From Candidatus Gastranaerophilales bacterium (GTDB taxonomy: Bacteria > Cyanobacteriota > Vampirovibrionia > Gastranaerophilales > Gastranaerophilaceae): a stretch of DNA of 64,000 nucleotides. Every line of letters begins with the position of its first letter. Position 1 is the first letter of the stretch. A model generated the notes under the pieces. That model had not been told where the DNA came from, searched no databases, and saw only the letters and a list, made by a program, of their open reading frames with translations. The stretch covers positions 1-64,000 of the forward strand of contig CALUYO010000008.1 of NCBI GenBank assembly GCA_944325005.1. The letters are read 5' to 3'. Below are positions 41,954 to 60,699 of the stretch, piece by piece. Both the position numbers and the translations under genes were made by a program.

Positions 41954-44900
41954 ATGTCAAAGCACATAATATTTAAGATTGAAACAAATAAATTATTCAG
42001 AATTTTTCTTAATTCGGAGTATTCAAAGTTTGTTATATATAATGACTTAAATATTGTTTTATCTTCAAAAAGAAATGTTCGGACTTTTAAGTATAATGAA
42101 ATAAGTAAAATTTCCGGAGAGACAGGAATTTGTTTTTCTTCTGTTAAAATACAAACGGTTTATAATGAAGTATTTGAATTACCTTTTTTGAATAAAAGAA
42201 AGACGCAGCATGCTGACAAATGGATGAATGCATTACTTCTGTGTAAAAAGTATAAAGATATAGATTCTAAAATAAAAGGTTACTTTAATTCGGAAAGTTA
42301 TATATCTTACTTGCAGAATAGTTTATTTTATGAAGAAAATATTAATAATAACAGCAGGGCATTGTCCTATAGAGCTGAAATATGCAAACTTTTTCCAAAT
42401 TTAAAATTTGATATAGAATATCCGTATTTAAATTCTTACCTGACAAATAAAGATGCAGAAAGAGATAAAAATAATAAAAAATTCCTGGCGGAGGAACCGG
42501 AAAGAAATGCAGTATACTTTGAAGATTTAAATAAAAAACAAATTGAAGCTGTAATTACGGATGAAGATAATGTTCTTGTTGTTGCCGGAGCTGGTTCGGG
42601 GAAAACAAAAGTTATTGAAGCAAGAATTCAATATCTTATTGAGAATAAAAAAACAGACCCTGATAACATTCTTGTTTTAACATTTAATAAAGAAGCATGT
42701 GCTGAAGTAAAAAAAAGAGTAACAAAACTTCTTAATACAAAAATACCTCATATTAAAACATTTCATGGATTCGGACTTAGTATTAATCGTGATTCGGAAA
42801 AATCTCTGGCCCCATTTTGCGATGATAAAAATAAATATCAAAGCTTTGTAAAAGAAAAAATTTTTGAGGTTCTGAAAAAAGATAAATCTAATTTTCCGCT
42901 ATTTTTCCTTTATTTTCAATCTTTTTATTATAAAACAAAAAATATTCATGATTTTAAAACAAAAGGAGAATATGATAATTATATACATGAGCAGGAGCTG
43001 TTATCATTAAAAAATGATAAAGTTAAAAGCTTTGGCGAATTAGATATCGCGAACTTTCTGTTCCTACATAATGTTCCGTATGAATATGAAACTGAATATA
43101 AAGGAAATTATCAAAGAGATATTCATCGTCGAGAATATAAACCGGATTTTTATATTCCGGCAGATGAAAATCATAAAGATATTTATATTGAGTATTTTGG
43201 TATAGATAAAGACGGTAATACTGCAAATTATATTGACTCAAAAAAATATAATGAAAGTATTGAATGGAAAAGGCATATTCATAAAGAAAATAACACTATT
43301 TTAATTGAATTATACTCCTATGATAAGTTTGAAAGAAATTTGATAAAAAAACTAAAGACCGAATTAAAAGCCAAAAAGGTGGATATTTCTCATGTTTTGC
43401 CGCCTGAAAAAAGGTTTGAGATTCTTAATAATATTAAGGGAATAGATAATTTTACAAAATTAACTGCGAAATTTCTAAAATTTTATAAAGGGAATAATTT
43501 TAAGATTGCTGAGCTCATATTAAAGTTAAAAGAAGTTAAACTTTTACTTTATAAAAGTTTAGGAGAACTTAATAATAAAGATGAAATAAATAATATAAAT
43601 TTTCAAATCAATGATATTAAAAGAAAACAACTATTCCTAAAATTATTTAAACCAATATATGAAGGATATCAAACATGTTTAGAAAAAAATAACCAATATG
43701 ATTTTGAAGATATGATTACTACGGCATCTGAAAAATTGTATAAATGTTATGAGGTCAATAAATTTGATTATAAATACATTTTGGTTGATGAGTTTCAGGA
43801 TATATCAAGGGGACGTGCAGAGTTTTTAAAAAAATTGATTTCATTAAACAAAACCAGTAAATTATTTGCAGTAGGAGATGATTGGCAAGCAATAAATAGA
43901 TTTGCAGGAAGTGATATCTCTATAATGTCCAATTTTTCTAAGGAATTTGAGGAACAGGGGAAACGCGGGACATCTATTATTACTCTTAATATTACATACA
44001 GGTTTAATGATAACATAAGTGAGGTTTCATCAAAATTTATACAAAAAAATCCTGATCAGATAAAGAAAGATATTAAAGCAAATATAACAAGCAATCGTCC
44101 GGCTGTGCTAATTTGGTACGATGAATCTGAAATAAGCGCAATTGAAAAAATATTGCAACAAATTTACGAATTTGTTGCAAACCAAAAAGCGAAAGAAAAA
44201 TTTTCAATAATGATTTTAACAAGATACAACCTTGATAAAGCTGAAAATAATTACTCAAAAGACTTATTAAAAGCATTAAAAGCTCTAAAAAAAGAATATA
44301 ACAAAATTTTCAATCTTTCTTATTCAACTATACATGCTTCTAAAGGTCAGGGGGTGGATTATGTGATACTTTTAAGTTTAAGGCAAGGAGCTTTCCCTAA
44401 TACAAAAGAAGATGATCCCATTATGGAACTTGTGATGAATAATAAAGATACATTTGAAAATGCGGAAGAACGCCGACTATTATATGTCGCATTAACGAGA
44501 GCAAAAAAAGAGGTTTATTTGGTTGGAACGGCAAAACCATCTTCATTTTTGTTAGAAATTGAAGATCCAAAAGAAAATTATCCTGTGGCAATTTGTAATA
44601 GACCGGATAATTATGCAACTATAAAATGCCCTGAGTGCCAAACAGGTATAATGATTCGACCTAAAAATGAAAACAATAAATTTTTCTATTGTCAAAACGA
44701 TTTTTGCGGCCTATCGGCACCTGTTTGTCCAATTTGTGAAAAAGGTTTTCTTTACAACGATAATGGATTAATAAAATGTAGTAATGATACTTGTAATCAT
44801 ATTACAAAACAATGTCCGGAGTGTGGAGGTATACTGGTTTTACGCCATAAAGATGATAATTATTTTTACGGGTGTTCAAATTATAGAGGACAGGATGAAG

Positions 44901-45058
44901 ATATTAGTTGTAAATATACAAAACGTTATGTTTGTATAGGTTGTAAAGATAAAAAAGCTTGCATATATAAACAAATGGATTCTAAAACAAACGAGCTGTT
45001 AATAAAATGCACTAATGAACATTGCAATAAAACAAAAAATTTCCCTGAAAAATTTTAG
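41954..45058 (+). CDS. UvrD/HelD-like helicase with an internal nuclease-like domain and zinc ribbons
   Basis: The 1034-residue protein starts with a non-helicase region (1-200). A superfamily 1 helicase core follows: NVLVVAGAGSGKTK (about 206-219), YILVDEFQDISRGRAEFL (about 608) and ASKGQGVDYVILL (about 796). Between motifs Ia and II, residues about 358-457 form an inserted domain (SFGELDIANFLFLHNVPYEY, REYKPDFYIP, IYIEYFGI) with the E-PDF-IEYFG layout of PD-(D/E)xK nucleases. The tail (892-1030) has at least three Cys-rich topoisomerase-type zinc ribbons. It may repair DNA or defend against foreign DNA. There is no ribosome site; TAAAAT ends six bases before the ATG. Confidence 0.88.
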   Translation: MSKHIIFKIETNKLFRIFLNSEYSKFVIYNDLNIVLSSKRNVRTFKYNEISKISGETGICFSSVKIQTVYNEVFELPFLNKRKTQHADKWMNALLLCKKYKDIDSKIKGYFNSESYISYLQNSLFYEENINNNSRALSYRAEICKLFPNLKFDIEYPYLNSYLTNKDAERDKNNKKFLAEEPERNAVYFEDLNKKQIEAVITDEDNVLVVAGAGSGKTKVIEARIQYLIENKKTDPDNILVLTFNKEACAEVKKRVTKLLNTKIPHIKTFHGFGLSINRDSEKSLAPFCDDKNKYQSFVKEKIFEVLKKDKSNFPLFFLYFQSFYYKTKNIHDFKTKGEYDNYIHEQELLSLKNDKVKSFGELDIANFLFLHNVPYEYETEYKGNYQRDIHRREYKPDFYIPADENHKDIYIEYFGIDKDGNTANYIDSKKYNESIEWKRHIHKENNTILIELYSYDKFERNLIKKLKTELKAKKVDISHVLPPEKRFEILNNIKGIDNFTKLTAKFLKFYKGNNFKIAELILKLKEVKLLLYKSLGELNNKDEINNINFQINDIKRKQLFLKLFKPIYEGYQTCLEKNNQYDFEDMITTASEKLYKCYEVNKFDYKYILVDEFQDISRGRAEFLKKLISLNKTSKLFAVGDDWQAINRFAGSDISIMSNFSKEFEEQGKRGTSIITLNITYRFNDNISEVSSKFIQKNPDQIKKDIKANITSNRPAVLIWYDESEISAIEKILQQIYEFVANQKAKEKFSIMILTRYNLDKAENNYSKDLLKALKALKKEYNKIFNLSYSTIHASKGQGVDYVILLSLRQGAFPNTKEDDPIMELVMNNKDTFENAEERRLLYVALTRAKKEVYLVGTAKPSSFLLEIEDPKENYPVAICNRPDNYATIKCPECQTGIMIRPKNENNKFFYCQNDFCGLSAPVCPICEKGFLYNDNGLIKCSNDTCNHITKQCPECGGILVLRHKDDNYFYGCSNYRGQDEDISCKYTKRYVCIGCKDKKACIYKQMDSKTNELLIKCTNEHCNKTKNFPEKF

Positions 45059-45064
45059 CTTATA

Positions 45065-45164
45065 TTAAAGAACCTTACTACCATGCCAAGCAGGAGCAAC
45101 AGTGTGAATGATGTATTTGCCAGGAAGATTGTACCTTTTTGATCTTAGCCTGTATTTCATTAGT
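45065..45164 (-). pseudogene. Decayed macrodomain gene fragment
   Basis: On the minus strand two frames carry a broken macrodomain: NEIQAKIKK in one frame, then YNLPGKYIIHTVAPAWHGS in the next, ending in TAA at 45065-45067. Intact macrodomains read AKIT-GYNLPAKYVIHTVGP, so a one-base shift separates the parts. No further domain sequence was found in 45165-45401, which holds no other gene. Macrodomains bind or remove ADP-ribose. The remnant lies next to a SIR2 (NAD-consuming) gene. Confidence 0.65.
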
Positions 45165-45401
45165 TTTGAACCAAAAAACGGAGAGCTTAGTCCACAGAGC
45201 AAAAGGCTCTGAACATTTCCCTGTTAATATTCAAATTGCAGTGTATTTTTGATATTTAGCAGTGAAATTAAAAAATATTAAGTCTATATAAAGAGGTTTT
45301 TTCAGCTTTTTTAGTGAAATTCCCTAAAATATTTAACAGCGATTTAACAAGGAAGATGGTTATTTGAATACTGTTCCGATATTTTAATATTTTCAGTTAT
45401 T

Positions 45402-48400
45402 CTAATGACTAATGATAATGTTTGTAGCACTAGGCCCACGCATTGTAAATGCGATATTAAATTTAACAAAATCTCCAGTTGTTATACTATTCCAAACGCT
45501 TTCAGTACTATTTTTATGGTATGCAAATATTTGTTTATTAGACGGGAGTTCATTTGCTTCTATAAAACAATATGTATAATCTTTATTTACAACTACCCCA
45601 GAATACAATTTATTAATAGGGAATAATAATTTATGTTTTACATTCTCATCAGCATACTCATAAGAATTTTCCAGGTTTTCAAATATTTGCTTTGCTTCAA
45701 AATACTCATTATTAATAAACAATTCTCTACCATATAGAATTTGAGCAGAAATATTAGCAGTATTGTCAATAATTGATTTTGATAAATGATTTATTATACT
45801 TTCTCTATATTTTTCTTCATCATATTCAAATAGTAATAGAGCTTTTATAAAATGTAATTTACAATCAGAATGATTTGCTTCAATTGCTTTATCTATAGTA
45901 TTTAATCCTTCTTCAAATAGATGTTTATATTGTAAATATTTTACTAATCTTATAGCTATAAATGTATTTCTTGGATTTACAGCAAATACCTTTTTTAGTG
46001 CTTCAAATAATCTTTGAGAATCTTCTAAAATCTCTGCTAATTCTGATTCATATTTAAGTAAATATTCATCATTCGGAAATAATTGAAGACCAATATATAA
46101 ATTTTGTTCAACTTTACTTATTATTTCTTGTATAACAGGTTCTGTTAGATCTGATTCATTATGTATCATATAAAACTTTAATCTTGTTAATTCAATTTTT
46201 ACTAATGTTGAATACCAATATCTATTATTTTTATCGTCAATCAAAATATTATTAACAATATTGTATGCATCAGAAAGCAACTTATCAGACTCTACTACAT
46301 TAGAGGCTTCTGAAGCTAAAATAATTAATAATTCTGCTTTTGAATGCTGTATGGATTTATCTCTGGGGGACAATTCTTCTGCGTATTTTAAGTATGATTT
46401 TGCTTTAGATATATTTCGTTCATTTCTATATAGCTCAAATATTGCTTTTTGTTGGTATAAGTATGAAGTATCTTCATATGCATCTTCAACCGAATCATAT
46501 ATTTGAGAAATGAGTTCTTCATTTTTAAATATTTCGAATAATTTATTAGCATTTATAAGTTTTCTAAAAAGTTTTTTGTCTGTATCATACAGAGTATTCA
46601 AAGGTTTTAAGGCCTTTATATAAAAGTCATAACGATCTTCTTCATTTGCTAGAATAAGCTTAAACACCATATCTGCAATATATGGATGTCGAGCTTCATA
46701 GTACCAATCTTTATCATATTTATTTTGTTTTGCAATAATTACTTCTTCTAATGGTTTAAAGAATTTCTTTTCAAATTCACTAAAATTAACACCATATATT
46801 GTTGTTATTATTCCTGCTCTAACTGGGTAATTTAAGCGATTTAATAAGCAAACAGTTTTGTACATTTGTTGTGCAAGAATTGGTGATATATTATTATATT
46901 CATCTTTTATAATATCTTCAAATTTTTTACCATTGGTCACTTCGTATAATGTTACTAATAATTGTTTTCCGTAATTGTTTAACAATTTTTTTAATTGTTC
47001 TTCCCTAGTATAATTTTTTAACATCCCTAGTGAATTATTTTCAGACAATTTATCTAACAAATATCCAGCTTCTTTATAATCTAAATACTTTAATTCATAA
47101 GTTTGTAAAGGTAATTGAAATCTATCTTCATATGAAACATTCCAAATATTCGTTCTTTCTGTCAGAATAATTGATAACTTGCAAGATTCTTTCCCCAAAG
47201 ATTTTACAATTTTTGTTAAATCAGTTATGCATCTGGATGCATTATCAATAAACAAATAAACTTTCTTATAACAATATGATAAAAGTTCTCGTAAGGCCAT
47301 AATATCAATATCAGCATAATCGTTCATAAAAAGGCACAATTTTGAGTATTCATTAGCGGCATCCCAAGCTAAACGTTTTAGCAATACACTTTTACCAGCT
47401 CCAGCATGTGATTTTATAAGCATTATTTGGAGTTTTGTTTTTGGTGTTATATCATCATAAAGAAAATTTTCTAAAATTATATTTTCAACTAAATGTCTTT
47501 TTGAATCTAAATTTTGAATAATAGGTGACCAACCCAAATCCAAACCTTTATAGAACTTTATAGGATTGACTGTTTCATATTTCATATTATTGTGTACAAT
47601 AGTAACTTCATTTGTTAGAAAATTTTTTAATGGTTGACTTATTTCTTGCTCAACATTCTTAAAGAATTTAAAAACAGGTATATCTCTATTATTAGGATTT
47701 TCTTTAAAATTAAGACTTCTAAAATCTGCAGGAATCTTATTATCTAAAGTTCGTAAAAAATCTTCAAAAGTTCCAGGTAGTACTGTAATATTTAAACTTT
47801 TTTCAAAGGCTTTTATTTGTAATTCATCCACATTCGGAATAATTAAATATCTATGTGGTGAAGATTTAAGATCATTATTTAACTCTCCAATTAAAGACCT
47901 TAAATCTATATCACTCAAACTTTGTCCTATAAAAATAACCGGATACTCACTAGCATCATTTTTAAACATATCATATAATCTTTTTCTACCAATTTTGCAA
48001 TTTATATATTGGTCTTTTGTTAAGATTAGTGGACAACCAACATCAGTATATCTTGTAATACAACCATGTAATTTAATATATTTTACAGAATTTGAATCTT
48101 TTAAAGCTTCAATAATCCTATCATTATCATCAATAAAAGGTACTAAATTTTGAGCCCTATTTCTTGTATTTCTATATATATTCTCTATTAATGTGTCATA
48201 ATTAGTTGTAACAATTGAATGCCAGCGAAATGTCGGTAAAAGACTGTGATAAGTAGGGGAATTGTAATCTTCAAAAATTTTTTTTATGTATTCTTGTACA
48301 GTCCTAGCATCAGAGTTAGTAATTGCAAATAACGCAATATCATCTAATGAGTTATTCGAATATTTCCCACCTAAAAACTTTTTATCTAACAATTGGCCAA

Positions 48401-48533
48401 GTTGATTTCCAATAGGGATTTCCTCTCCTTTGCTATTACGAGCACCGTAATTAGCTCCTGAACCTAAGCATAAAACAACTTGACCACGTTTAATTTGATC
48501 TAATAAATATGGAGGTATATTCATATAATCCAT
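45402..48533 (-). CDS. SIR2-STAND NTPase-TPR protein with a C-terminal cold-shock-like domain (probable anti-phage defence)
   Basis: The 1043-residue protein resembles Avs5-type defence proteins. Residues 1-265 are SIR2: GSGAN (24-28), TTNYDTLIE (109-117) and KLHG with H156, the residues that hydrolyse NAD. Residues about 340-640 are a P-loop NTPase of STAND type: Walker A SHAGAGKS (375-382), Walker B YLFIDN (426-431), LTERTN and RHPYIA (615-620). Residues about 650-965 are TPR-like helices. Residues 976-1041 resemble a cold-shock OB fold (SGVVVNKDYTYCFIEA, then GDFVKFNIAF and RGPSATNI, like GPxAxNV). I infer sensing by the tail, oligomerisation and NAD depletion. No ribosome site; TATTAT (48540-48545) ends six bases before the ATG. 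Confidence 0.88.
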   Translation of the reverse strand: MDYMNIPPYLLDQIKRGQVVLCLGSGANYGARNSKGEEIPIGNQLGQLLDKKFLGGKYSNNSLDDIALFAITNSDARTVQEYIKKIFEDYNSPTYHSLLPTFRWHSIVTTNYDTLIENIYRNTRNRAQNLVPFIDDNDRIIEALKDSNSVKYIKLHGCITRYTDVGCPLILTKDQYINCKIGRKRLYDMFKNDASEYPVIFIGQSLSDIDLRSLIGELNNDLKSSPHRYLIIPNVDELQIKAFEKSLNITVLPGTFEDFLRTLDNKIPADFRSLNFKENPNNRDIPVFKFFKNVEQEISQPLKNFLTNEVTIVHNNMKYETVNPIKFYKGLDLGWSPIIQNLDSKRHLVENIILENFLYDDITPKTKLQIMLIKSHAGAGKSVLLKRLAWDAANEYSKLCLFMNDYADIDIMALRELLSYCYKKVYLFIDNASRCITDLTKIVKSLGKESCKLSIILTERTNIWNVSYEDRFQLPLQTYELKYLDYKEAGYLLDKLSENNSLGMLKNYTREEQLKKLLNNYGKQLLVTLYEVTNGKKFEDIIKDEYNNISPILAQQMYKTVCLLNRLNYPVRAGIITTIYGVNFSEFEKKFFKPLEEVIIAKQNKYDKDWYYEARHPYIADMVFKLILANEEDRYDFYIKALKPLNTLYDTDKKLFRKLINANKLFEIFKNEELISQIYDSVEDAYEDTSYLYQQKAIFELYRNERNISKAKSYLKYAEELSPRDKSIQHSKAELLIILASEASNVVESDKLLSDAYNIVNNILIDDKNNRYWYSTLVKIELTRLKFYMIHNESDLTEPVIQEIISKVEQNLYIGLQLFPNDEYLLKYESELAEILEDSQRLFEALKKVFAVNPRNTFIAIRLVKYLQYKHLFEEGLNTIDKAIEANHSDCKLHFIKALLLFEYDEEKYRESIINHLSKSIIDNTANISAQILYGRELFINNEYFEAKQIFENLENSYEYADENVKHKLLFPINKLYSGVVVNKDYTYCFIEANELPSNKQIFAYHKNSTESVWNSITTGDFVKFNIAFTMRGPSATNIIISH

Positions 48534-49094
48534 AAAGGAATAATATCATTAAAATGAGAAAATTTTAACACTTTAAATATAAATATTAACATTAATATAT
48601 CTTTATAAATTTTTAATATTAACATCATACTAAATTGCAATACTAACTTTTTAGTTATAATTTATTCTTATGAGTTTTCATATAATCAAATGATTGGAGT
48701 TATCTGTCCAGGAATGACATAATTCTTGCGTCCATACATTGTACGCAAGAATTTACAATATGGTTAATAAATTGATAGAAAATTTTGATAAATTAAATGA
48801 TAAACTTAAATGACGCTCGAAATATTCAGCCATTGAATGCGCTGTATTATGTCAATATTTGATAAAATTAATTGACAACTTAGATATTGATAAAAGTGAA
48901 TTTAGTTTTTTACAGAAATCTAATTAGTATGCTGGAGTTAAAGTCAAAAAAACAAAATCCTAAAAAATACTATTGGTTTTGAAACATACTAATCTAAAAA
49001 GGTCAGAAATTTATAATTTCCGACCTTTTTAGATGTTTATTATTTTGTTTTCATAACAGATTTGCACGCAATCTATATCAAAGATTTGCTAAAG
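48534..49094. other. Gene-poor 560-base stretch with an inverted repeat and a broken frame
   Basis: No intact gene is visible. AATTCTTGCGT (48721-48731) and ACGCAAGAATT (48743-48753) form a perfect 11-bp inverted repeat with no T-run after it. On the plus strand a frame from ATG 48760 runs 17 codons to TGA (48811-48813) and then reads on 37 more codons in phase to TAG (48925-48927), with a helical composition; it looks like a small decayed gene. A terminator for the next minus-strand gene lies at 48992. Confidence 0.5.
48992..49034 (-). terminator. Terminator of the DUF1643 genes
   Basis: ATCTAAAAAGGTC (48992-49004) pairs with GACCTTTTTAGAT (49022-49034); inner bases GAAAT/ATTTC extend the stem. 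It lies 60 bases after the stop codon at 49095. Confidence 0.8.
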
Positions 49095-49772
49095 TTATCT
49101 TTTTACAAGAATTGCTAAGTTTTCAAAACCACCTAAACCGTTCCAAACTTGGCTACTCGGATGGTGATTAAATTCATTTACAACTTCTTTGTTTACTCCT
49201 ATTATAAAAGTCTGTTTATTTTTAAGAACTGTTTCTATTTCTTCAATTAAATTTTTACAATATGAATCTTTTTCTTTTCCAAGTCCCCAAGCCAATACAA
49301 CATCTTTATTTTCATCATTACTTATTTGCATTAAGTAGCTTATAATAAATTCTTTGTTTACAGAATTAGTATTTTTAAGAGCCGATTTTGAAGGGTTAGG
49401 GGTTCTTAGCGAAAACAAATTAATGATTTCAACAATACCATAGCCAGAACCTTCAGCTAACTTTATACAATTTTGGATAGTATCATCATTTTCATCAGGA
49501 TTTGCAAAACTCGGATTATATAAAATAAATACTATTGATTTATCATTTGAACTTAAATTATACCTTGCAAAATATCTGTGTTTATATGGATATTTGTCAA
49601 ACAAATATCTAAGATTAAACTTACTAATTTCTTTAGAATTATATTGTTCATTTTTAGAAAATACCATAAATCCATTGTTTAAAACTAATTCTTTTACAAT
49701 AAAATTTTCTGACTCAGGTTTTATGCTTGTATCATTTACGTTGTTAATAATTTCAATAAGTTCTCTAGTCAT
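49095..49772 (-). CDS. DUF1643 family protein
   Basis: The 225-residue protein has the DUF1643 core: IVFILYNPSFANPDENDDTI (family pattern LNPSxAD-DDxT), then GYGIVEIINLFSLRTPNP, VVLAWG and a late HHPSSQ. The family is common on phages and mobile islands and has no proven activity. It lies downstream of a second member at 49840. AGGAG stands before the ATG. Both copies share an identical 23-base stretch in this core, a sign of duplication. Confidence 0.85.
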   Translation of the reverse strand: MTRELIEIINNVNDTSIKPESENFIVKELVLNNGFMVFSKNEQYNSKEISKFNLRYLFDKYPYKHRYFARYNLSSNDKSIVFILYNPSFANPDENDDTIQNCIKLAEGSGYGIVEIINLFSLRTPNPSKSALKNTNSVNKEFIISYLMQISNDENKDVVLAWGLGKEKDSYCKNLIEEIETVLKNKQTFIIGVNKEVVNEFNHHPSSQVWNGLGGFENLAILVKR

Positions 49773-49839
49773 TCATAAACTCCTTTCATTTTTCCTGCTT
49801 GAGAATATTCTTTTAACGTGATTTATAATTTTACTGTTA

Positions 49840-50517
49840 CTAGTTATTAAATTTGTAAATAGATTTTATCTCTGTTAATCTTAGTTGACTAATTCCTTTT
49901 ATAGAATTAATAGATGGCGAAGATAAATGTCTTTGAAAATCATCATCTGCTATTTGATATAACTTTTTATTCTTATCAATTAATTTTGAAGATAAATTTT
50001 CAATTATTTTATCTATGTATGGGATATTTTTGGGTAATTTTCCCCAACACAATACAACAGCATTAGGTAAATCATCAAAATTTATCTTACACACATATTT
50101 TTTCAAAAATTCTTTTTTATAATATTTGCAAACAAAATCCGATCCAGAAATTCTTATAGGAAATAGGTTAAAAACAACAATTTTATTATAACCTTCTTGA
50201 TTTGCAAATTTGATAGCATTTCTAATAGTGTCGTCACTATTTTCAGGATTTGCAAAACTCGGATTAAACATAATAAAACCTAAAGCATTTTCAGACTGCT
50301 TGGATTTAGATTGCCAACTTGCAATTAATTTGGTTCTATTTTTATGATAAATCCCATTAACTTTAACTTTTTCTTTAAAATTAATTTTTTTATTTTGATT
50401 ATCATAAAATTTTTGAATTTCTTGCATTTCTTCCTTGCTAAATTCTGAATTAAAAACAACTTCAACCTTAACATTTAAACATTCATTCTTATTAATTTTT
50501 ATTTGCCAATTATACAT
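49840..50517 (-). CDS. DUF1643-like protein (second copy)
   Basis: A 225-residue paralogue with LGFIMFNPSFANPENSDDTI, NKIVVFNLFPIRISG, AVVLCWG and RHLSSPS. The N-terminal 70 residues differ from the first copy. It is upstream of the other copy, in the same direction, 67 bases apart, and may share its message. AAAGGA lies before the ATG. It diverges from the XRE gene at 50812, and the gap between them has one of three shared inverted-repeat sites. Confidence 0.8.
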   Translation of the reverse strand: MYNWQIKINKNECLNVKVEVVFNSEFSKEEMQEIQKFYDNQNKKINFKEKVKVNGIYHKNRTKLIASWQSKSKQSENALGFIMFNPSFANPENSDDTIRNAIKFANQEGYNKIVVFNLFPIRISGSDFVCKYYKKEFLKKYVCKINFDDLPNAVVLCWGKLPKNIPYIDKIIENLSSKLIDKNKKLYQIADDDFQRHLSSPSINSIKGISQLRLTEIKSIYKFNN

Positions 50518-50555
50518 CTCTATTTTCCTTTCAATTTTTATTTTAAATTCATACT

Positions 50556-50572
50556 CTGTCTAAAATGGACGT
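50556..50572. promoter_or_regulatory. Candidate WYL operator, site 1 (weak left half)
   Basis: CTGTCT-AAAAT-GGACGT lies in the divergent gap between the DUF1643 and XRE genes. The right half is identical to site 3 (52712); the left half matches only partly. Geometry (6-5-6) is the same as sites 2 and 3. The rest of the 294-base gap 50518-50811 shows no gene. Confidence 0.4.
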
Positions 50573-50811
50573 ATTAGAAATTCTTATTTTTATACAAGTA
50601 ATTGCTCTTATTGCATTGAACCTCAAGTATTTTGATACAAAAAGTATCATTCAATCTTACCAGTACTGAATATTTAGTAAAAAATCCAGAATGGGAAAAT
50701 TATAGTTTATCTTATACTGAATTACATCATTTAAAATCAGTATAGAAAAGTGTTGTTTTCGTAATTTTATTTGTACGATTGTTTTATTCAAGATACAAAT
50801 AGGATGTAAAT

Positions 50812-51126
50812 ATGGATAAGAAAAAGCTTCTAGGTCGCAGAATTAAAGAACTAATTAAACAAAGAGGTATAAGCCAAGAAAAAATAGCAGAACTTGTTGG
50901 AATAGAACCTACAGCTTTAAGTAATATTGTTACTGGTAGGAATTATCCATTAATGACAACATTAGAGAAAATTTTACAGGTATTAGACGCTAATTTTTCA
51001 GACGTATTTAATTTTGAACATCAAAATGATGCTAAAGATTTATACAATGAAATAATACAAATTCTGAACAATAATCCAGGAAGAATAAAAGATTTTTATA
51101 AAATAGCTAAAGCTCTAGTGGAATAA
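50812..51126 (+). CDS. XRE-family regulator at the head of the rtcB group
   Basis: The 104-residue protein has an N-terminal helix-turn-helix (KQRGISQEKIAELVGIEPTA, LSNIVTGRNYPLMTTLEKIL) and a short helical C-terminus that may form dimers. AGGA lies before the ATG. It is the first plus-strand gene in the group that includes rtcB, WYL and a helicase-nuclease. It may control the group together with the WYL protein. Confidence 0.85.
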   Translation: MDKKKLLGRRIKELIKQRGISQEKIAELVGIEPTALSNIVTGRNYPLMTTLEKILQVLDANFSDVFNFEHQNDAKDLYNEIIQILNNNPGRIKDFYKIAKALVE

Positions 51127-51176
51127 GTTACAAACTTTTTCAAACACTTGAAATGTAAAATAATTAGAGCGTTAAT

Positions 51177-51203
51177 GAAGTACGTCCAAATAAGACGTAC
51201 TTC
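51177..51203. promoter_or_regulatory. Candidate WYL operator, site 2 (perfect palindrome)
   Basis: GAAGTACGTC (51177-51186) and GACGTACTTC (51194-51203) form a perfect 10-bp inverted repeat with a 7-base centre, 34 bases before the gene at 51238. It contains the ACGTCC-N5-AGACGT core of the other two sites. Confidence 0.6.
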
Positions 51204-51237
51204 TATTTTATACTTATTCCAGAAAGGAAATTTTAAT

Positions 51238-51582
51238 ATGAAATATTTAATTAGAGCAAACAAAGTCGTATTCAGTGGCAATATGAAAATGATTATTAAG
51301 TACGTCTCTGATTTTTATAACTCCGAAGTTAAGGAATGGACTGGAAATTCAGGAGAATGGAATGATTTAGGTCAATTTAAATCTTTTATTGAATCTAAAG
51401 GATATTCAATAAAAGACAAAATTCCATCAAATTGTCGCTGTGAAGGAACTGCAATAACAAACGCAGAATTTAAGAAAATCTGGAGTGAATGCCATTTTGA
51501 TATTAAAACGGTCGCACAAAGACTCCACATAGAAGAACGAATAGTAGCACAAATTGCAAGAAAAATGAAAGTGAGGAAATAA
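51238..51582 (+). CDS. Small protein with a C-terminal helix-turn-helix, coupled to rtcB
   Basis: A 114-residue protein from the ATG at 51238 (AAAGGA eight bases upstream). An earlier start would lack a ribosome site and would read through the palindrome. The first half is alpha/beta without known motifs. The last 40 residues (FDIKTVAQRLHIEERIVAQI, then ARKMKVRK) look like a helix-turn-helix. It ends one base before the rtcB ATG, so the two are co-translated. I do not recognise the family; a regulator or adaptor for RtcB is a guess. Confidence 0.6.
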   Translation: MKYLIRANKVVFSGNMKMIIKYVSDFYNSEVKEWTGNSGEWNDLGQFKSFIESKGYSIKDKIPSNCRCEGTAITNAEFKKIWSECHFDIKTVAQRLHIEERIVAQIARKMKVRK

Positions 51583-51583
51583 T

Positions 51584-52705
51584 ATGTATGAAATTCAAGG
51601 GAAGTATACCTCCGCAAAAATTTTTACAGAAATTGAAGATAAGGATGTAACTGATCAAACGTTTTCGATTTGTAACCATCCTATTTTTAAGGATTGCAAA
51701 GTTCGAATTATGCCAGATTGTCATAAGGGTAAAGGTTGTACCATTGGGTTTACAGCAGAAAAACCTAAGAATGGTGAAATTATTCCAAATATTATTGGGG
51801 TAGATCAGTTTTGTGGAATGCATGTTATAAAATTGAGTGAAAATGACATTACAAATGATTATGAGAAATTGGATAAAGTTATCCGTAGAAATATTCCTTT
51901 TGGAAGGGATGGTAGAAGGAGATTTAGTGAACTTGTACCTGAAGATTTTATTGAAAAAACAAAAAAAATTTGCAAAGATTTTTTGAAAGATAATTTTGTT
52001 AATCACATTAATAAAATCGGTTCATTAGGAGGTGGAAATCATTTTATTTCCCTGGAGAAAGGTGATACCGGAACATACTTGATAATTCATAGTGGGTCAA
52101 GAAATATTGGTTTGAAACTTGCTATCTATTTTCAAGATTTGGCTATCACAAAAAATTGTTACGGAGAGGGTGAACTAAAACAGCTTTCATTTTTAACAGA
52201 TAAAGATGCTCAGGATTATTTAGATTGTGCTGAATTTTGTCGAGAATATGCGAAACTTAATCGTAAAATTATGGCACATGATATAATGGTTGGAATGCGT
52301 TGGAAATTAGATGATGAATTTGAAACTATCCATAACTATATTGGAGAAGATGGGATTATTAGAAAAGGAGCGATTTCTTGCAAAGAAGATGAAAAAGTTT
52401 TAATTCCCCTTAATATGGCAGACGGTTCATTAATTTGTATTGGGAAAGGAAATTCTGATTGGAATAATTCTGCTCCACATGGAGCAGGAAGAACATTGTC
52501 AAGAATGCAAGCAAAAGAACAATTAACAATGCAAGAATATAAAAATCAAATGACAGGGATTTTTTCAAGTTGTATATCTTTGGCAACACTTGATGAGTCT
52601 CCAGGTGCGTATAAAAATAGTGATGAAATAATTAGAGCAATTGAACCATCAGCAAAAATTTTAGACCATCTAAAACCTCTATATAATTTTAAAGCAAAAG
52701 AATAA
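51584..52705 (+). CDS. rtcB: RtcB-type RNA ligase
   Basis: RtcB joins RNA 2',3'-cyclic phosphate or 3'-phosphate ends to 5'-OH ends with GTP and Mn. The 373-residue protein keeps the metal and guanylylation residues: MPDCH (43-47), GVD-x-x-CGM (72-79), GGGNH (about 149), HSGSRN (about 169) and PHGAGR (about 297), where His takes GMP. The usual GVDIGCGM reads GVDQFCGM. It belongs to a short RtcB subgroup, not the archaeal tRNA-splicing type. Neighbours (WYL regulator, helicase-nuclease) suggest repair of RNA cut by toxins or phage, under stress control. GAGGAA precedes the ATG. Confidence 0.92.
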   Translation: MYEIQGKYTSAKIFTEIEDKDVTDQTFSICNHPIFKDCKVRIMPDCHKGKGCTIGFTAEKPKNGEIIPNIIGVDQFCGMHVIKLSENDITNDYEKLDKVIRRNIPFGRDGRRRFSELVPEDFIEKTKKICKDFLKDNFVNHINKIGSLGGGNHFISLEKGDTGTYLIIHSGSRNIGLKLAIYFQDLAITKNCYGEGELKQLSFLTDKDAQDYLDCAEFCREYAKLNRKIMAHDIMVGMRWKLDDEFETIHNYIGEDGIIRKGAISCKEDEKVLIPLNMADGSLICIGKGNSDWNNSAPHGAGRTLSRMQAKEQLTMQEYKNQMTGIFSSCISLATLDESPGAYKNSDEIIRAIEPSAKILDHLKPLYNFKAKE

Positions 52706-52711
52706 ATTTAG

Positions 52712-52728
52712 ACGACCATATTGGACGT
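52712..52728. promoter_or_regulatory. Candidate WYL operator, site 3
   Basis: ACGACC-ATATT-GGACGT, an inverted repeat with one mismatch, lies 37 bases before the WYL gene and just after rtcB. It has the same layout as the sites at 50556 and 51177, which suggests autoregulation by the WYL protein. Confidence 0.5.
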
Positions 52729-52765
52729 ATTTTTATGATACAATAAATTCAATAGGAGTTTAATT

Positions 52766-53722
52766 ATGAAAGATAAACCAAGATATTCGAGAGTTTCTGA
52801 TATTTTAGATTTGATAATATTCATGTTATCAAGATTTAATGGTGTATCTTTGAATGATATCCAAGAACGATATAATATCTCAAGAAGAACTGCAGAAAGA
52901 ATGAGAGATGCCGTATTGGCATCATTTCCTCAGGTTGATGAAATCGAAACAGATGATCGTTGTAAAAGATGGGGATTTACAAACTATTCTTTGAATGAAT
53001 TGGTGACTTTTTCAAATGAGGATATTGCATTATTAGAAAATCTAAAAAAGACTTGTGACAATCTTTCTCAAGCTGAAATTGAAGATATCATAATAAAAAT
53101 GAAAGCTCTAAAGCACAAATTTACGAAAATTGATGATGAAAAAATTGAATTAATTCTTCATTCAGAAGGTTATGCTATAAGGCAGACTCAGAATTTTAAA
53201 GTAGATTTAGAACAGGTATCTGTTATTCGTCAAGCAATAAAAGAAAAAAACAAATTGCGAGCTGAATACCATGATAAAATCAGAATTTTAGAACCTTTGG
53301 GATTAATTTACGGGGAAAAAGTTCATCTTATAGCAAGAGAACCTCAAAAGGGTGAAGGTGAGTATAATTATGTTTTGCATAAATTAAAAAATGTCAAACT
53401 TACAAATGAAACTTTTGATTCAAAAGATTTTAATTTGCAAGAATATTCTCAAAAATCTTTCGGAGTATATTTTGGTGAAATCTATGATGTTAAATTAAAA
53501 TTTATACCGGAAGCAGCGGAAGATGTTATGAATTATAATTTTCATCCGACTCAAAAAATAAATTTGCAAGATGACGGCAGCGTAATAGTAACCTTTAAAG
53601 CAAGTGGTGATAAACATATTATGTGGAACCTTTTTAAATGGGGGAATGCTGTTGAAATTCTTGCACCTAAATCTTTGCATCAAAAGTATCAGGAAACATT
53701 AAAAAGTCTAATTAAAGAATAA
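52766..53722 (+). CDS. WYL-domain transcriptional regulator
   Basis: The 318-residue protein has an N-terminal winged helix (VSLNDIQERYNISRRTAERM, RDAVLASFP) and a C-terminal WYL domain (ILEPLGLIYGEKVHLIAREP, the usual W-Y-L replaced by V-H-L) plus a WCX-like tail. WYL proteins sense nucleic-acid ligands or damage and control defence genes (BrxR/CapW type). It lies between rtcB and the helicase gene in one direction. AGGAG stands before the ATG, and an inverted repeat (52712) stands upstream. Confidence 0.88.
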   Translation: MKDKPRYSRVSDILDLIIFMLSRFNGVSLNDIQERYNISRRTAERMRDAVLASFPQVDEIETDDRCKRWGFTNYSLNELVTFSNEDIALLENLKKTCDNLSQAEIEDIIIKMKALKHKFTKIDDEKIELILHSEGYAIRQTQNFKVDLEQVSVIRQAIKEKNKLRAEYHDKIRILEPLGLIYGEKVHLIAREPQKGEGEYNYVLHKLKNVKLTNETFDSKDFNLQEYSQKSFGVYFGEIYDVKLKFIPEAAEDVMNYNFHPTQKINLQDDGSVIVTFKASGDKHIMWNLFKWGNAVEILAPKSLHQKYQETLKSLIKE

Positions 53723-53739
53723 AAAAGGAATTTTATAAA

Positions 53740-56700
53740 ATGACAATAACACCAAATTCAAAGCAACAGGAATGTATTGATAATATTGATGGCAAATATC
53801 TTGTACTTGCAGGACCTGGTACAGGTAAAACTTTTACAATGATTCAAAGAATTAAGAATATGATTGAAAAAGGTATTAATCCTGAAAAGATTTTGTGTCT
53901 TACTTTTTCTGATGCTGCAACTAATGAAGTTAAAACAAGGCTTGAAAAAGAATTAGGTAAGCTTGATGTCGGTGTTAATGTATATACTTATCATGGCTTT
54001 TGTAATGAAATTATTTTAGAAAATACAATTGATTTTGAGTTGTCTGACAATATAAAAGTAATACCTGATGCGGTATCAATCTCTCTTATAAAAGAATGTA
54101 TTGATGAAATCGATTCAAAAGTTTATAGGACAAAAAGAAATGATCCTTATTATTTTATAAAAGAAATTAGAGATAATATAAAAGAAATCAAAGCAAACAG
54201 ATTGACCAAAGAAAAATTCTTCTACAATATAGAAACAAATAGAGATTGGGCACCGAAATTTTTTGAATTAAAAAATCGACTGGCAGAATTAAACGAAAAC
54301 AATAAGAAAGTTCCTAAAAAATTATTAACAGATATTGACGATATTGAAAAGAGAATCGCAAAAGTTAAAGAGATTTGGAAATTTTATGAGTTATATAAGT
54401 CAAAAATGGAAGAACAAAGATATTTTGATTTTAGCGATATGATAAATCTAGTTTTAGAAAAATTTGAAACTGATTCTGCCTTCTTATCAAAAATTGCGAA
54501 TAAATATGAATATATTTTGGTTGATGAGTATCAAGATACAAACAAAAATCAAAATGAAATAGTTTTTCATTTAACTAAAGCTCTTGAGAGTGAAAATGTG
54601 TTTGTCGTTGGAGATGATGATCAAATTATATATACATTTCAAGGAGCAAGAATTGATAATGTAGAGAGGTTTTTAAAAGAATTTCCGGACACTAAAGTTA
54701 TTTGTCTAAAAGAAAATATGCGATCTACTCAAAATATTCTTGATACAGCGAGAAAAATTGTAGAACAAGATGATAAAAGGTTAGAAATTAATCCTGAATT
54801 TGCGCAATATAATATTGATAAACATTTAGTTTCTAAAAATACAAAATTACCATTCAAAGATAGAAAAGTGAGGTTTTATCATTATGCAGACATTCTCCAA
54901 GAGTATCAGGAAATTGTTGATGAAATTGTAAGTCTTATTGAATCAGATGATTGTCCTAAAGATGATAGTAGCAATAAAAAGCTATCAGAAATTGCAATAC
55001 TTACAAGGGATAATAATTCTCTGTCTACATTTGCTGAAATGCTAAAAGAAAAAAATATTCCATCAGAATTAAAAGAAGGTAAGAGTATATTTCAAATAAT
55101 ATCTTCAAATATTTTGTATTATTATATGCAATTACTTATAAATCCTGAGCTGCATTCTGATAAATTTTTCAGATTAGCATTATCACAACCTTTTAATATT
55201 CACCCAAAGGATTTTGAAACTATTTATAATCAAAAATCTCATTACAAATCTTTTGTAGAAATGATAAATTCTATTGATAAAAAAGAGCTTATAGAGCCTG
55301 AAAAAATAGATAAATTTATCAATATTTTTAATCATTTGTTGTCTTACAAAACAAATGAAACATTAAAAAATGTAGTTTTAGAAATTGGATGCAAAACCGG
55401 GATATTTGATTATTATATTAATTCTGAGACTAATAGAATAGAAAATATTTCAGGACTAAAAAAACTTGTAGATGAAGCTGTTAATTTTTCAAACACTCAA
55501 AAGAAAATCAGTATAGAAGAATTTGTAGAATATTTGACAATGTGTTTTACTGATGAAATTCCGATAAAAATAGACAAATCTCCTGTTGCAATGAATGCTG
55601 TTCAATTATCAACTTATCATTCAGCAAAAGGGCGAGAATTTGAATATGTTTATATGCCTACTCTGAAAAACAGGGATTGGGAAAGTAGTTCAAAATCTTT
55701 AAGACCTATAGTTCCCTTAGATGCATCAGAGTACAAAACAGATAATGAGTTAAGAGAGTTAAAAAAATCAGATTGCATTAAACTTTTATATGTCGGTATG
55801 ACAAGAGCAAAACATACATTAAGACTTTCTTACCCTAAAAATATTAACGGTTCAACTCAAACTCCTACAAAATTTATCAGTAGCATTGAAGATGTTTTTG
55901 AAATAGAACAGGAACCTTTTACTTATGACAGTTCGACCTTCTTATTAGGAAATATAAAAGCTCTCAGAAAACTCGATTATGACTACGAAAAAGATTTTTG
56001 TTCTATGGTTGATAAAAAACTTGAAGGAAAAGCATTTTCCCCAAGTGCAGTGAATACTTATTTAAAATGTCCACGCCAGTATTTTTATAATTATATTCTA
56101 GATTTATCTCCAAAAGACGGAAATCCTGATCCTTTGAGCTTTGGTAAAGCTGTCCATTCAGCTTGTGAGTTTGCTGTAAAATTTGCCAAACTAAATAATG
56201 AATATCCAACAAAAGAAGAGTTTATAAATGAATTTAAAAAGGCATTAGATAAATTGCCTATGTCGAGTTATAAACAACGAGAAATTTATATTGAACGAGG
56301 AGAAAAGGCTCTTAGTGAATATTATATTCAGATGTGCAACACTCCAAGTTCAATGCTCTATGAAGTTGAAAAACCTATAAATTTTGAGCTTGATGGAATA
56401 AAATTTTATGGAATTATAGACAGGATAGATAAGAATTCTGACGGAACTTACACTATTTATGACTATAAAACAGGTGGCGCAAAAGATTCAAAAATTATTT
56501 GCCCAGATGGAAAGCACGAAGATTATTACAATCAAATGGGGCTATATAAATATTATTTTGAAAAATCTACAGGTAATACTGTGAAAGAAACAATATTTAT
56601 TTTCCCTGAAGAATTTACAGATAATTTTACTTTGAATTTAACTCAAGACGACTGCAAAGCTATTGATGAAAAATTTAAAGAAGCAATTTCAAACATAAAA

Positions 56701-56769
56701 AATTATAAATTTAATCCAACTCCAGGTAATGAAACTTGTAAATATTGCCCTTATAAAGATTTTTGCTAA
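53740..56769 (+). CDS. UvrD-type helicase fused to a Cas4/AddB-type Fe-S nuclease
   Basis: The 1009-residue protein joins a superfamily 1 helicase (Walker A AGPGTGKT, 24-31; YILVDEYQDT, about 257; VVGDDDQIIYTFQGA; STYHSAKGREFEYVY; LLYVGMTRAKHTLRL) with a C-terminal nuclease (about 760-1009: AVNTYLKCPRQYFYNY, DRIDKNSDGTYTIYDYKTGG). One Cys near 776 and ETCKYCPYKDFC at the end form the 4Fe-4S site of Cas4/AddB nucleases. It can unwind and degrade DNA ends. It follows the WYL gene by 17 bases with AAGGA upstream, so it is in the same operon. It probably acts in DNA repair or anti-phage defence. Confidence 0.92.
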   Translation: MTITPNSKQQECIDNIDGKYLVLAGPGTGKTFTMIQRIKNMIEKGINPEKILCLTFSDAATNEVKTRLEKELGKLDVGVNVYTYHGFCNEIILENTIDFELSDNIKVIPDAVSISLIKECIDEIDSKVYRTKRNDPYYFIKEIRDNIKEIKANRLTKEKFFYNIETNRDWAPKFFELKNRLAELNENNKKVPKKLLTDIDDIEKRIAKVKEIWKFYELYKSKMEEQRYFDFSDMINLVLEKFETDSAFLSKIANKYEYILVDEYQDTNKNQNEIVFHLTKALESENVFVVGDDDQIIYTFQGARIDNVERFLKEFPDTKVICLKENMRSTQNILDTARKIVEQDDKRLEINPEFAQYNIDKHLVSKNTKLPFKDRKVRFYHYADILQEYQEIVDEIVSLIESDDCPKDDSSNKKLSEIAILTRDNNSLSTFAEMLKEKNIPSELKEGKSIFQIISSNILYYYMQLLINPELHSDKFFRLALSQPFNIHPKDFETIYNQKSHYKSFVEMINSIDKKELIEPEKIDKFINIFNHLLSYKTNETLKNVVLEIGCKTGIFDYYINSETNRIENISGLKKLVDEAVNFSNTQKKISIEEFVEYLTMCFTDEIPIKIDKSPVAMNAVQLSTYHSAKGREFEYVYMPTLKNRDWESSSKSLRPIVPLDASEYKTDNELRELKKSDCIKLLYVGMTRAKHTLRLSYPKNINGSTQTPTKFISSIEDVFEIEQEPFTYDSSTFLLGNIKALRKLDYDYEKDFCSMVDKKLEGKAFSPSAVNTYLKCPRQYFYNYILDLSPKDGNPDPLSFGKAVHSACEFAVKFAKLNNEYPTKEEFINEFKKALDKLPMSSYKQREIYIERGEKALSEYYIQMCNTPSSMLYEVEKPINFELDGIKFYGIIDRIDKNSDGTYTIYDYKTGGAKDSKIICPDGKHEDYYNQMGLYKYYFEKSTGNTVKETIFIFPEEFTDNFTLNLTQDDCKAIDEKFKEAISNIKNYKFNPTPGNETCKYCPYKDFC

Positions 56770-56790
56770 ATTTTTCCAAATTAATTTAGT

Positions 56791-58266
56791 TTAAAAGAGT
56801 TTGTGTAAGCCTAGTTGTTTGAACCTAGCATATTTCATAGCTTTATATTCTTCTGATTTAACATAATTGGCCATTGCATTGACTCGTTCAAGTGTTGAAG
56901 CTACATTGTTATTTTGCTTAACTTGAATAATTAATTGAGAAAATGCATCAACTTGATCATCATGTCGACCATATGGAAATGATACAATTTCTGTCCTAAA
57001 ATCATCTAACCAAGGTGCATTACTTTTTAAATATACTTGTCCATATTCTAATGGTCCATTTGCATAATTTGCTCTTACTATTTTGGAATCTTTAGGGTTA
57101 AATTTTATCGGATAAATATTTCTTTTTGAAAGTTCTTGTAAAAGCAATTCAGTACTAGTTGTTGCCTCAATAACTATATTTCTGCATTGGTACTTTTGAG
57201 CCTGTGCTATTATTTCTAGTGGTAATTTTCCAATATCAATTTTATCCCTATATATATCTGTAATGTATATATTTTCTTCAACGACAATCGCAGTAATACA
57301 TACGGTATAATCATTATTATTACCTGTTTTAAAAGCAATATCCCAGCTTTGAAAAACAGTCCCATTTGAAGGTATTGAATCTGTATATTTAAAGTGTTCA
57401 AAATTAATAATGTTACCTTTTTCCGGAATTGGAAGCTGTTGATATTGTGCCGAAAAATTATAATTACTCATTGTTTTTTTGAGATTTAAAATATCACCAA
57501 GTGCTTCAATTTCAGGACATAATACTTCTCCTGCTTGTCTTGTAATTATTTTGCCATTAGATAATAAATATTCTTCATTTGATTCAGCAATTGCAGGTAA
57601 AGACAACACATCCCAACCATCTTGTTTTAATAAGTGTGCGGTTAAGTCATCTACGTGTAAACGTTGCATTACAAGAATAATTACACCTTCTTGTTTATTA
57701 TCAAGTCTTGAGGCTAAGGTATTATCATACCAGTCATTAACGCTTTCTCTGATTGTCTGAGACATAGCATCTGCAGCTTTAATAGGATCGTCAATAATTA
57801 TGTAGTTACCACCACTACCGGTTAATGTGCCTCCTACGGAGGTTGCATGGCAATATCCATTTTTTGTAGTTTCAAGTAAATGCTCAGTTTGTTTATTTGG
57901 ATTTAATCTTGTAGCAAATGTTTCTTTATAAAAATCAGAATTCATTAATTTTTTTCTATCTCTAGAAAATTTATTTGCTAATTCTTGAGAGTAACTTACA
58001 CAAACAATTCTTTCATTCGGGTTTCGCCCAAGTAACCAAGCAGGCAGAGCAATAGAAGCTAACGTTGATTTCATTTTCCTTGGTGGCATATTAATTATAA
58101 CTCTTTTATGTTTTTTCTCCGCACACTGTTGTAATTTGTCAGCTAAAATCTGCAAGTATTTTGCGGGAATAAAAGGTTGAGAATTATCAATTTCTGAAAA
58201 TACTTTTTGTACAAATGTGTAAAAATCTGTTCTCATAGCAGCTTGTAATACTTTTTTATCATTCAT
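56791..58266 (-). CDS. terL: Phage terminase large subunit
   Basis: TerL cuts and pumps phage DNA into proheads. The 491-residue protein has the ATPase (MPPRKMKSTLASIALPAWLL for Walker A, YIIIDDPIKAADAM for Walker B) and a RNase H-fold nuclease (FQSWDIAFKTG, NIVIEATTSTELL, HDDQVDAFSQLI with acidic metal residues). It is intact. It overlaps the DUF5681 gene by one base. No portal, capsid or tail gene lies in the window, so this is either the edge of a prophage or a detached packaging module. Confidence 0.9.
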   Translation of the reverse strand: MNDKKVLQAAMRTDFYTFVQKVFSEIDNSQPFIPAKYLQILADKLQQCAEKKHKRVIINMPPRKMKSTLASIALPAWLLGRNPNERIVCVSYSQELANKFSRDRKKLMNSDFYKETFATRLNPNKQTEHLLETTKNGYCHATSVGGTLTGSGGNYIIIDDPIKAADAMSQTIRESVNDWYDNTLASRLDNKQEGVIILVMQRLHVDDLTAHLLKQDGWDVLSLPAIAESNEEYLLSNGKIITRQAGEVLCPEIEALGDILNLKKTMSNYNFSAQYQQLPIPEKGNIINFEHFKYTDSIPSNGTVFQSWDIAFKTGNNNDYTVCITAIVVEENIYITDIYRDKIDIGKLPLEIIAQAQKYQCRNIVIEATTSTELLLQELSKRNIYPIKFNPKDSKIVRANYANGPLEYGQVYLKSNAPWLDDFRTEIVSFPYGRHDDQVDAFSQLIIQVKQNNNVASTLERVNAMANYVKSEEYKAMKYARFKQLGLHKLF

Positions 58267-58634
58267 TATTTGCTATTCCTTTCTATGAAATCTCTAAGAA
58301 TTTTAGCATCTTCAATTGAAAGATTTTCTTCTATGTCCTTAGGTTTTATTGGTAAAGTACTCATTATACTGGTTACCAACTTTATTGATGTCATATTCCC
58401 ATTTAGAGCACTTGTTATAAGTCTTTTAATAAGTGCCCTTTGTTTTGTCATTGTCTTAATACTACCTCCCTCTTTTAAGGTTATAGTTTCTTCTAACTCG
58501 TCCTGAAAATCAGTCTTAAAATCTTGAATAAGCTTAGGTCTACCTTTTGGATTTCCACTGATTCCTGGCTTAAATTGATGTTCTTTAGGCGGTTTTTTGT
58601 AACCTACTTCATAATCCTTATTAAGATCTGACAT
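58266..58634 (-). CDS. DUF5681 protein (probable terminase small subunit partner)
   Basis: The 122-residue protein starts VGYKKPPKEHQFKPGISGNP then KGRPK, the DUF5681 signature. Such proteins stand just before terL in many prophages and probably recognise DNA like a small terminase subunit. Its stop overlaps the start of terL, and its start overlaps the methyltransferase stop by one base, so all three genes are coupled. Confidence 0.82.
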   Translation of the reverse strand: MSDLNKDYEVGYKKPPKEHQFKPGISGNPKGRPKLIQDFKTDFQDELEETITLKEGGSIKTMTKQRALIKRLITSALNGNMTSIKLVTSIMSTLPIKPKDIEENLSIEDAKILRDFIERNSK

Positions 58635-59914: not shown

Positions 59915-60153
59915 TGGTTTTCCTCCTATTTATATCACTAAAAGTCTTGTTATTACTTTATTATACAACTTTAAATAGTTTGTAAAGCCCTCCAGAAAAA
60001 GAAAACAACTAGTAAATTTTCTTAAAACGCAATACTAGAGATTGATACAGCGATATTTTAATGATTTTACAAAAATTTATGTACATTTGTATCACCGAAC
60101 TTGACATAGTTGTACTTTAATATGATTTATATAAACAAACAAAAGGAGGTAAC
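59915..60153. other. Divergent promoter region of the methyltransferase and FtsZ-like genes
   Basis: No gene is visible. TTGACA (60100-60105) is a possible -35 element for the plus-strand gene at 60154, but no well-spaced -10 box was found. The repeat TTGTA is present twice (60081-60095 and 60110-60115). AAAGGAGG stands just before the ATG at 60154. Confidence 0.35.
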
Positions 60154-60699
60154 ATGAATAAGGATTTAATTATTATCGGTATTGGAGAAGGTGGATGCAA
60201 AATAGTTTCAAAACTGGATAAGAAATATCCAAAACTTTTTATTGATACTGATAAAGATGTTATAGAAAAATATAACGGATTAAGGATAGGAAAAAGTACT
60301 TGTAGAGAATATTCTGCTCAAGGAGATATTAATCTTGCTGAATTATCCGTGAGGGAAAGTAAAGAAGATTTATTATCTGCAATAAAAAATTATAATGAAA
60401 TAATTCTTGTGGCTCCTTTAGGCGGTGGTACATCCTGTGGTACTACTAAAAAATTTGTTGAATTAATTATTGATATAAATAAATCTGTAAAGTTCTTTAC
60501 GAGTTTTCCATTTGATTTTGAAGGTAGAAATCGTTTATTAAAAGCTATAAAAACTTTTGATTATTTAAAGCAACTTTGCAATGTTATTCTAGTTGATAAA
60601 TTTGACATATCAACAACCAACAAAAAAATTAGTATTAATGAAATATTTGAAAATCAAGATAACCTATTTATTCAAGAAATAGAAAAGATTTGTGTCTAA
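60154..60699 (+). CDS. Free-standing FtsZ/tubulin-like GTPase domain
   Basis: The 181-residue protein follows the N-terminal GTPase half of FtsZ: IIIGIGEGGCKIV (glycine loop), FIDTDKDV, LRIGKSTCREYSAQGDIN, the tubulin signature APLGGGTSCGTTKKF (GGGTGTG in FtsZ), FTSFPFDFEGRNRLLKA and ILVDKFD. It ends where the FtsZ C-terminal (activation) domain should begin, so it lacks the T7 catalytic loop. It may be a phage or element protein that binds GTP or poisons host FtsZ. AAAGGAGG stands before the ATG. Confidence 0.78.
   Translation: MNKDLIIIGIGEGGCKIVSKLDKKYPKLFIDTDKDVIEKYNGLRIGKSTCREYSAQGDINLAELSVRESKEDLLSAIKNYNEIILVAPLGGGTSCGTTKKFVELIIDINKSVKFFTSFPFDFEGRNRLLKAIKTFDYLKQLCNVILVDKFDISTTNKKISINEIFENQDNLFIQEIEKICV

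Follow-up and report, generated by a model that had tools for sequence, protein, structure and literature searches.

The window, a 64,000-nucleotide stretch of a gut Candidatus Gastranaerophilales genome of the Melainabacteria type, contains a gene whose product combines an N-terminal SIR2 domain, a STAND NTPase module, a TPR-like helical array, and a tail that resembles a cold-shock domain (CSD) (Table 1). A first-pass annotation, made from the DNA alone, had located this open reading frame exactly, together with its P-loop and its SIR2 motifs (GSGAN at residues 24-28, TTNYD at 109-113, and H156 in LHG). The domain order that it gave also holds. Pfam SIR2_2 matches residues 106-251 (80.6 bits, cut-off 24.5) and nSTAND_NTPase5 matches residues 326-469 (90.6 bits, cut-off 34), and the TPR region is all-helical in the AlphaFold model. 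The SIR2 part resembles the solved SIR2 NADases KomC, ThsA, and DSR2. Pfam TPR models match weakly, and the A1 profile matches TPR structures. No NCBIfam family matched the protein above its cut-off. The window copy is intact, with the SIR2 and Walker A motifs present, and a comparison of the SIR2 and STAND motif columns across 15 proteins found the catalytic motifs to be retained among the relatives.

Table 1. Features at and around the gene
Feature	Coordinates	Strand	Basis and remarks
Mobile island adjoining lepA; carries the gene	41954..63558		Sibling comparison and phage/recombinase genes; borders approximate
Whole gene, SIR2-STAND-TPR-CSD protein, 1043 aa, ATG start	45402..48533	-	ORF, Pfam, and full-length relatives
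Predicted SIR2 NADase-type effector domain, residues 1-265	47739..48533	-	Pfam SIR2_2, solved-structure matches, and motifs
STAND NTPase module, residues 326-640; Walker A GAGKS 378-382, Walker B D430	46614..47558	-	Pfam, profile, and motif columns
TPR-like helical array, residues 641-965, putative sensor	45639..46613	-	Model and profile
Predicted cold-shock domain tail, residues 966-1043 (about 970-1041)	45405..45638	-	Pfam, tail profiles, and model
Terminator-like hairpin upstream of the gene	48992..49034	-	20-pair stem; parts the gene from the DUF1643 pair

Judging from comparisons with other genomes, the gene is horizontally acquired and rides a mobile island. Nine proteins to the right of lepA (41954-56769) have no counterpart in the lepA-flanking stretch of 11 siblings, with the exception of a partial helicase match in one of these genomes. 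The island contains UvrD helicases, a DUF1643 pair, RtcB, a terminase, a methyltransferase, and a serine recombinase. In its right part, the terminase, an N6/N4 methyltransferase, a DUF5681 protein, and a large serine recombinase are found. A full-length relative with 93% identity (L004) lies in another assembled genome, a Melainabacteria MAG, and its locus has the same methyltransferase/DUF5681 pair along with serine recombinases, which shows that the gene travels.

The gene is probably transcribed alone because a hairpin lies between it and the DUF1643 pair. (The scan found one hairpin versus 0.9 expected in shuffled sequences, and the one found has the long stem given in Table 1.) Near the gene, a promoter scan gave the same result as shuffles, and searches for small ORFs and Rfam families found nothing. 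Also, no neighbor is conserved across the relatives. Given the upstream hairpin and the lack of a conserved partner, this looks like a one-gene system.

The C-terminal tail

The cold-shock pattern that the first-pass annotation saw at the C-terminal end is supported by profiles and models, although the HMM search that it named as a check gave a split result. Against Pfam CSD (PF00313), the full window protein scores 17.6 bits (residues 982-1040) and the tail by itself reaches 22.5 bits (E = 1e-4), both below the gathering cut-off of 27, but the tails of 9 of 14 relatives match, with a best E of 8.4e-10. A profile built on the tails retrieves UNR, CspE, CspA, CspB, YB-1, and other cold-shock structures from the PDB. 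When the window protein and its 93%-identical relative were left out of a tail HMM, it still recovered the window tail (E = 3e-21). This HMM was positive in all 19 full-architecture proteins checked, at identities down to about 20%, and found no tail in two shorter SIR2-STAND proteins (L020 and L021). Given the strength of this match and the silence of the HMM on the two tail-less proteins, the match to the window tail is more than chance.

Structure prediction, the other check of the tail that had been named, agrees. The tail has five strands in both the full-length AlphaFold model and a model of the tail alone (pLDDT 85.3, pTM 0.71), and this predicted five-strand OB fold is closest to CSDs. 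In a Foldseek search of the PDB, its best matches are CSDs, as are most of the best 17 (UNR, YB-1, CspA), and the leading matches have TM-scores, normalized by target, of 0.73-0.78. By profile and by model, then, the predicted cold-shock fold is confirmed: it is borderline in the window sequence by itself and firm across the family.

The tail appears to retain part of a nucleic-acid site. When it is aligned to CspA, the RNP1-like residues Y988 and F990 and the RNP2-like residue F1003 fall at the three base-stacking phenylalanines (F18, F20, and F31, respectively). Among 19 proteins, the Y988 position is F or Y in 17, the F990 position is F in 14, and the F1003 position is F or Y in all 19; in a 7-member alignment, two of the three stacking aromatics are invariant. 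The strand-1 Lys-Trp-Phe patch of canonical Csps is absent from the window tail, and the net charge of the tail is about zero rather than positive. Noncanonical CSDs need not bind RNA. Overall, the sequence and the model make binding of nucleic acid plausible. In sum, the tail has the same fold as the cold-shock proteins CspA, UNR, and YB-1, as well as their RNP1-like and RNP2-like aromatics and GP.A motif, but it is fused to a STAND receptor, no longer has the binding-face Trp and Lys, and scores under the Pfam cut-off. It is also among the less conserved parts of the protein. Another defense protein with some resemblance is the Retron Se72 effector, whose model scores the CSD of an E. coli relative at 27.5 bits (E = 2e-6), but this is below that model's cut-off of 82, and the effector is a stand-alone protein.

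In the whole window genome, the tail is the sole CSD match. We searched 58 genomes, of the host and its relatives, and found a Pfam CSD above the cut-off in just one, from the same class; genus-, family-, and order-level relatives gave no Pfam CSD match and no canonical cold-shock protein. The same search was positive in 9 of 14 control genomes. Because CSDs are scarce in the host lineage while the controls are positive, the CSD most likely arrived with the gene instead of being captured from a local Csp. The cold-shock function may be provided in some other way in this lineage.

Relatives and their mobile elements

The window gene is under purifying selection relative to L004: dN/dS is 0.095 overall and 0.23 in the tail (one pair, NG86). 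More distant full-length relatives are present in a same-family genome (24-25% identity), on plasmids of Vibrio, Psychrobacter, Klebsiella, Methylobacterium, Acinetobacter, and Hymenobacter (20-35% identity), and on IMG/VR contigs. In a phylogenetic tree, long branches make the positions uncertain for the distant relatives L003, L012, and L022, as well as for the two proteins lacking the CSD.

The four-domain family, with its conserved tail and, in the window protein, intact SIR2 and Walker motifs, is carried by mobile elements and found in known defense hotspots, with members in E. coli and Klebsiella. L018 belongs to a P2-like prophage; it lies next to an Abi_2 gene, in the interval from the replication gene to the portal. 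L016 (IMG/VR) and L047 (E. coli N18-04097) are in P4-like satellites, between psu and the integrase. The E. coli protein is WP_097725118.1, encoded at L047:7980-11084. Rousset et al. defined both the psu-int (P4) and the P2 defense hotspots (PMC9122126). L017 is in a prophage with a terminase, the Vibrio relative is in a conjugation-linked site next to conjugation and integrase genes, and further relatives are on conjugative plasmids. A phage collection contained no relative of the window protein, and the sole match to L018 was partial, to the SIR2 domain of Lactococcus phage BK5-T. In a DNA search of 5,426 E. coli genomes, L018 gave one distant match only and L016 gave none.

We also looked for swapping of the effector with a STAND-only profile and rejected it. 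The further viral loci that we examined all kept the C-terminal CSD, and those that were unbroken and untruncated also kept SIR2. (The frame of L061 is broken before the STAND part, and L063 is truncated.)

Several relatives have variant sequences. In L003 (L003:1225-4287), which is from the same family, the Walker A lysine is lost (GYGVT), which recalls the GGT/S of SAMD9, and the CSD-like tail is kept. In the distant relatives L012 (L012:5947-9108) and L022 (L022:6001-9318), the catalytic HG of SIR2 is replaced by NG, an alternative that has been reported in PaAvs5. The Klebsiella and Acinetobacter plasmid copies (L008:5995-9015 and L011:6010-9115) are annotated as two or three ORFs, and some look broken. 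Finally, the CSD-less proteins L020 (L020:5956-8361) and L021 (L021:1789-4239) are SIR2-STAND relatives of about 800 amino acids that belong to another unclassified group; they match the PADLOC Avs5 model over SIR2 only.

Comparison with Avs5, SAMD9, and DSR2

The likeness to Avs5 that the first-pass annotation had proposed is visible in both fold and sequence. When the full-length model was compared to known structures with Foldseek, EfAvs5 (9jap) came first (E = 4.3e-20), although the domain arrangement was not tightly matched (TM 0.27-0.33). Human SAMD9 (9zjr) came second (6e-17; 1186 alignment columns, or about the whole length), and the AVAST5 filament (9nc9; 4e-13) and DSR2 (3e-9) also matched. 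The model was built from a seven-sequence alignment (pTM 0.51), and the TM-scores of these matches are low (0.2-0.34). This is as expected for flexible multidomain proteins modeled from seven sequences, so the matches point to related parts rather than to a shared conformation. In the sequence search with the STAND profile, EfAvs5 was the only strong match (6e-11).

Avs5 proteins (EfAvs5, AVAST5, PaAvs5) share with the window protein a SIR2 effector with NADase motifs, a STAND NTPase, C-terminal repeats, and the overall SIR2-STAND-repeat fold. In contrast, they are shorter (869 amino acids for EfAvs5 and 771 for the PADLOC model) and no CSD has been described in them. The PADLOC Avs5 model did not match the window protein at E ≤ 0.01, and it matches the relatives at most over SIR2. 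Also, nSTAND3 (PF20720) scores 19.2 bits on the window protein, below its cut-off of 27.2, and nSTAND_NTPase5 is the best STAND model. On these grounds, we rejected membership in Avs5 in the strict sense.

SAMD9 has the same order of domains: its core was described in 2017 as SIR2-STAND-TPR-OB, in animals and bacteria, with an OB domain "most similar" to cold-shock proteins (PMC5445408). However, SAMD9 and SAMD9L have a variant SIR2, a Walker A of GGT/S, where Gly replaces Lys, and an AlbA_2 tRNase effector, whereas the window protein has intact SIR2 motifs and GAGKS (its relatives have GKS or GKT, except for L003). Its SIR2 domain starts near residue 1, and Pfam finds no N-terminal AlbA_2 (tRNase) or kinase domain. 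Neither the STAND profile nor the tail profiles matched the SAMD9 chain by sequence at E ≤ 1. Strict membership in SAMD9 was therefore rejected on Walker A, N-terminal domain, and sequence similarity. We consider strict orthology to SAMD9 unlikely for this bacterial gene; the identical domain order and the near full-length fold match favor this idea, but the same three features, and the better match to EfAvs5, go against it.

DSR2, like the window protein, is a SIR2 NADase with a long helical sensor, and the folds match, but the NCBIfam Dsr2 model does not match the window protein and scores L018 far below its cut-off. The activator of DSR2 is a protein, the phage tail tube.

The first-pass annotation knew of no study of this combination of domains. 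This view does not stand, given the published SAMD9 core, and SIR2-STAND-repeat proteins had already been listed for the P4 hotspot (PMC9122126). Our literature search found no paper on the CSD tail of this bacterial SIR2-STAND-TPR family. As far as that search shows, the novelty is a separate mobile family of bacterial proteins that combines an intact SIR2, a GKS/T Walker A (except in L003), and a constant CSD tail and that occurs in known defense hotspots.

Proposed role and alternatives

We propose that the window protein is probably a single-gene, Avs5-like STAND immune receptor that acts as an NADase and leads to abortive infection. At rest, the TPR array and the CSD would keep the STAND module inactive. 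Upon infection, the TPR/CSD end would bind an infection product, causing NTP exchange and oligomerization of the STAND module, and the oligomer would activate the N-terminal SIR2 domains to hydrolyze NAD+ and abort the infection. By analogy to Avs5, DSR2, and ThsA, it is quite likely that NAD+ hydrolysis, NTP-driven assembly, and abortive infection occur. In PaAvs5, NAD+ hydrolysis depends on SIR2, and the Walker motifs and the repeat domain are essential (PMC12931631).

What the receptor senses is harder to predict. Going by the sequence of its tail, the CSD could contribute to sensing through contact with single-stranded RNA or DNA, either alone or in a phage nucleoprotein; we hold this view tentatively. 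The chief rival is that the same NADase receptor uses its CSD for protein recognition or as an autoinhibitory clamp, with nucleic-acid binding lost and a phage protein as the trigger via TPR and CSD, which is also possible. The known activators of Avs5, such as JADA, are proteins (PMC12931631). The lost Lys-Trp-Phe patch and the lack of positive charge point the same way, and the tail profile best matches UNR domains, and noncanonical ones occur among these. On the other hand, the positions that are kept are the very ones that stack with bases in CspA, including the two invariant aromatics.

Another explanation is that the CSD tethers the receptor to host mRNA or ribosomes, to keep it off or near translation, and does not sense infection. 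CSDs do bind host mRNA broadly. SAMD9 affects translation by cleaving tRNA (PMC13245274). Yet none of our data prefer tethering to sensing, and as no other CSD was detected in the host order, there is no evident host Csp network for the tail to be part of, so we think this quite improbable. It is more improbable still that the gene is decayed or an inert passenger of a mobile element. In some plasmid copies, the annotation splits the gene into two or three ORFs, but the window copy is intact and under purifying selection, and 19 full-architecture proteins carry the tail.

If the CSD does sense nucleic acid, then it would represent a new class of trigger for Avs-like receptors. The broader statement, that a mobile bacterial family of STAND receptors whose SIR2 NADase is intact relies on a CSD to detect single-stranded nucleic acid or nucleoprotein arising from infection, is doubtful at this stage; if true, these proteins would be the counterpart, for nucleic acid, of the Avs systems that sense proteins, and would serve as a working model of the SAMD9 core in bacteria. 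SAMD9 and SAMD9L are restriction factors for poxviruses and HIV-1 and a cause of disease in humans, and their trigger is unknown (PMC13245274); the role of the SAMD9 OB domain is only predicted. As there are family members in a P4 satellite of E. coli and on Klebsiella plasmids, the role of a CSD/OB domain at the sensor end is genetically testable in a laboratory strain.

The neighboring genes of the island are of some interest as well. Tandem DUF1643 genes (49095-49772 and 49840-50517) adjoin the SIR2 gene and are followed by a Cro-type HTH gene (50812-51126); they are possibly part of the island's defense set. There are two UvrD-type helicases (41954-45058 and 53740-56769), one with a C-terminal zinc ribbon and one with a PD-(D/E)XK nuclease, and between them are RtcB (51584-52705) and a WYL regulator (52766-53722). 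Adjoining the terminase, methyltransferase, and serine recombinase is a gene (60154-60699) for a 181-amino-acid protein with a tubulin/FtsZ-type GTPase domain (Pfam Tubulin, 49.5 bits), which is shorter than the usual FtsZ.
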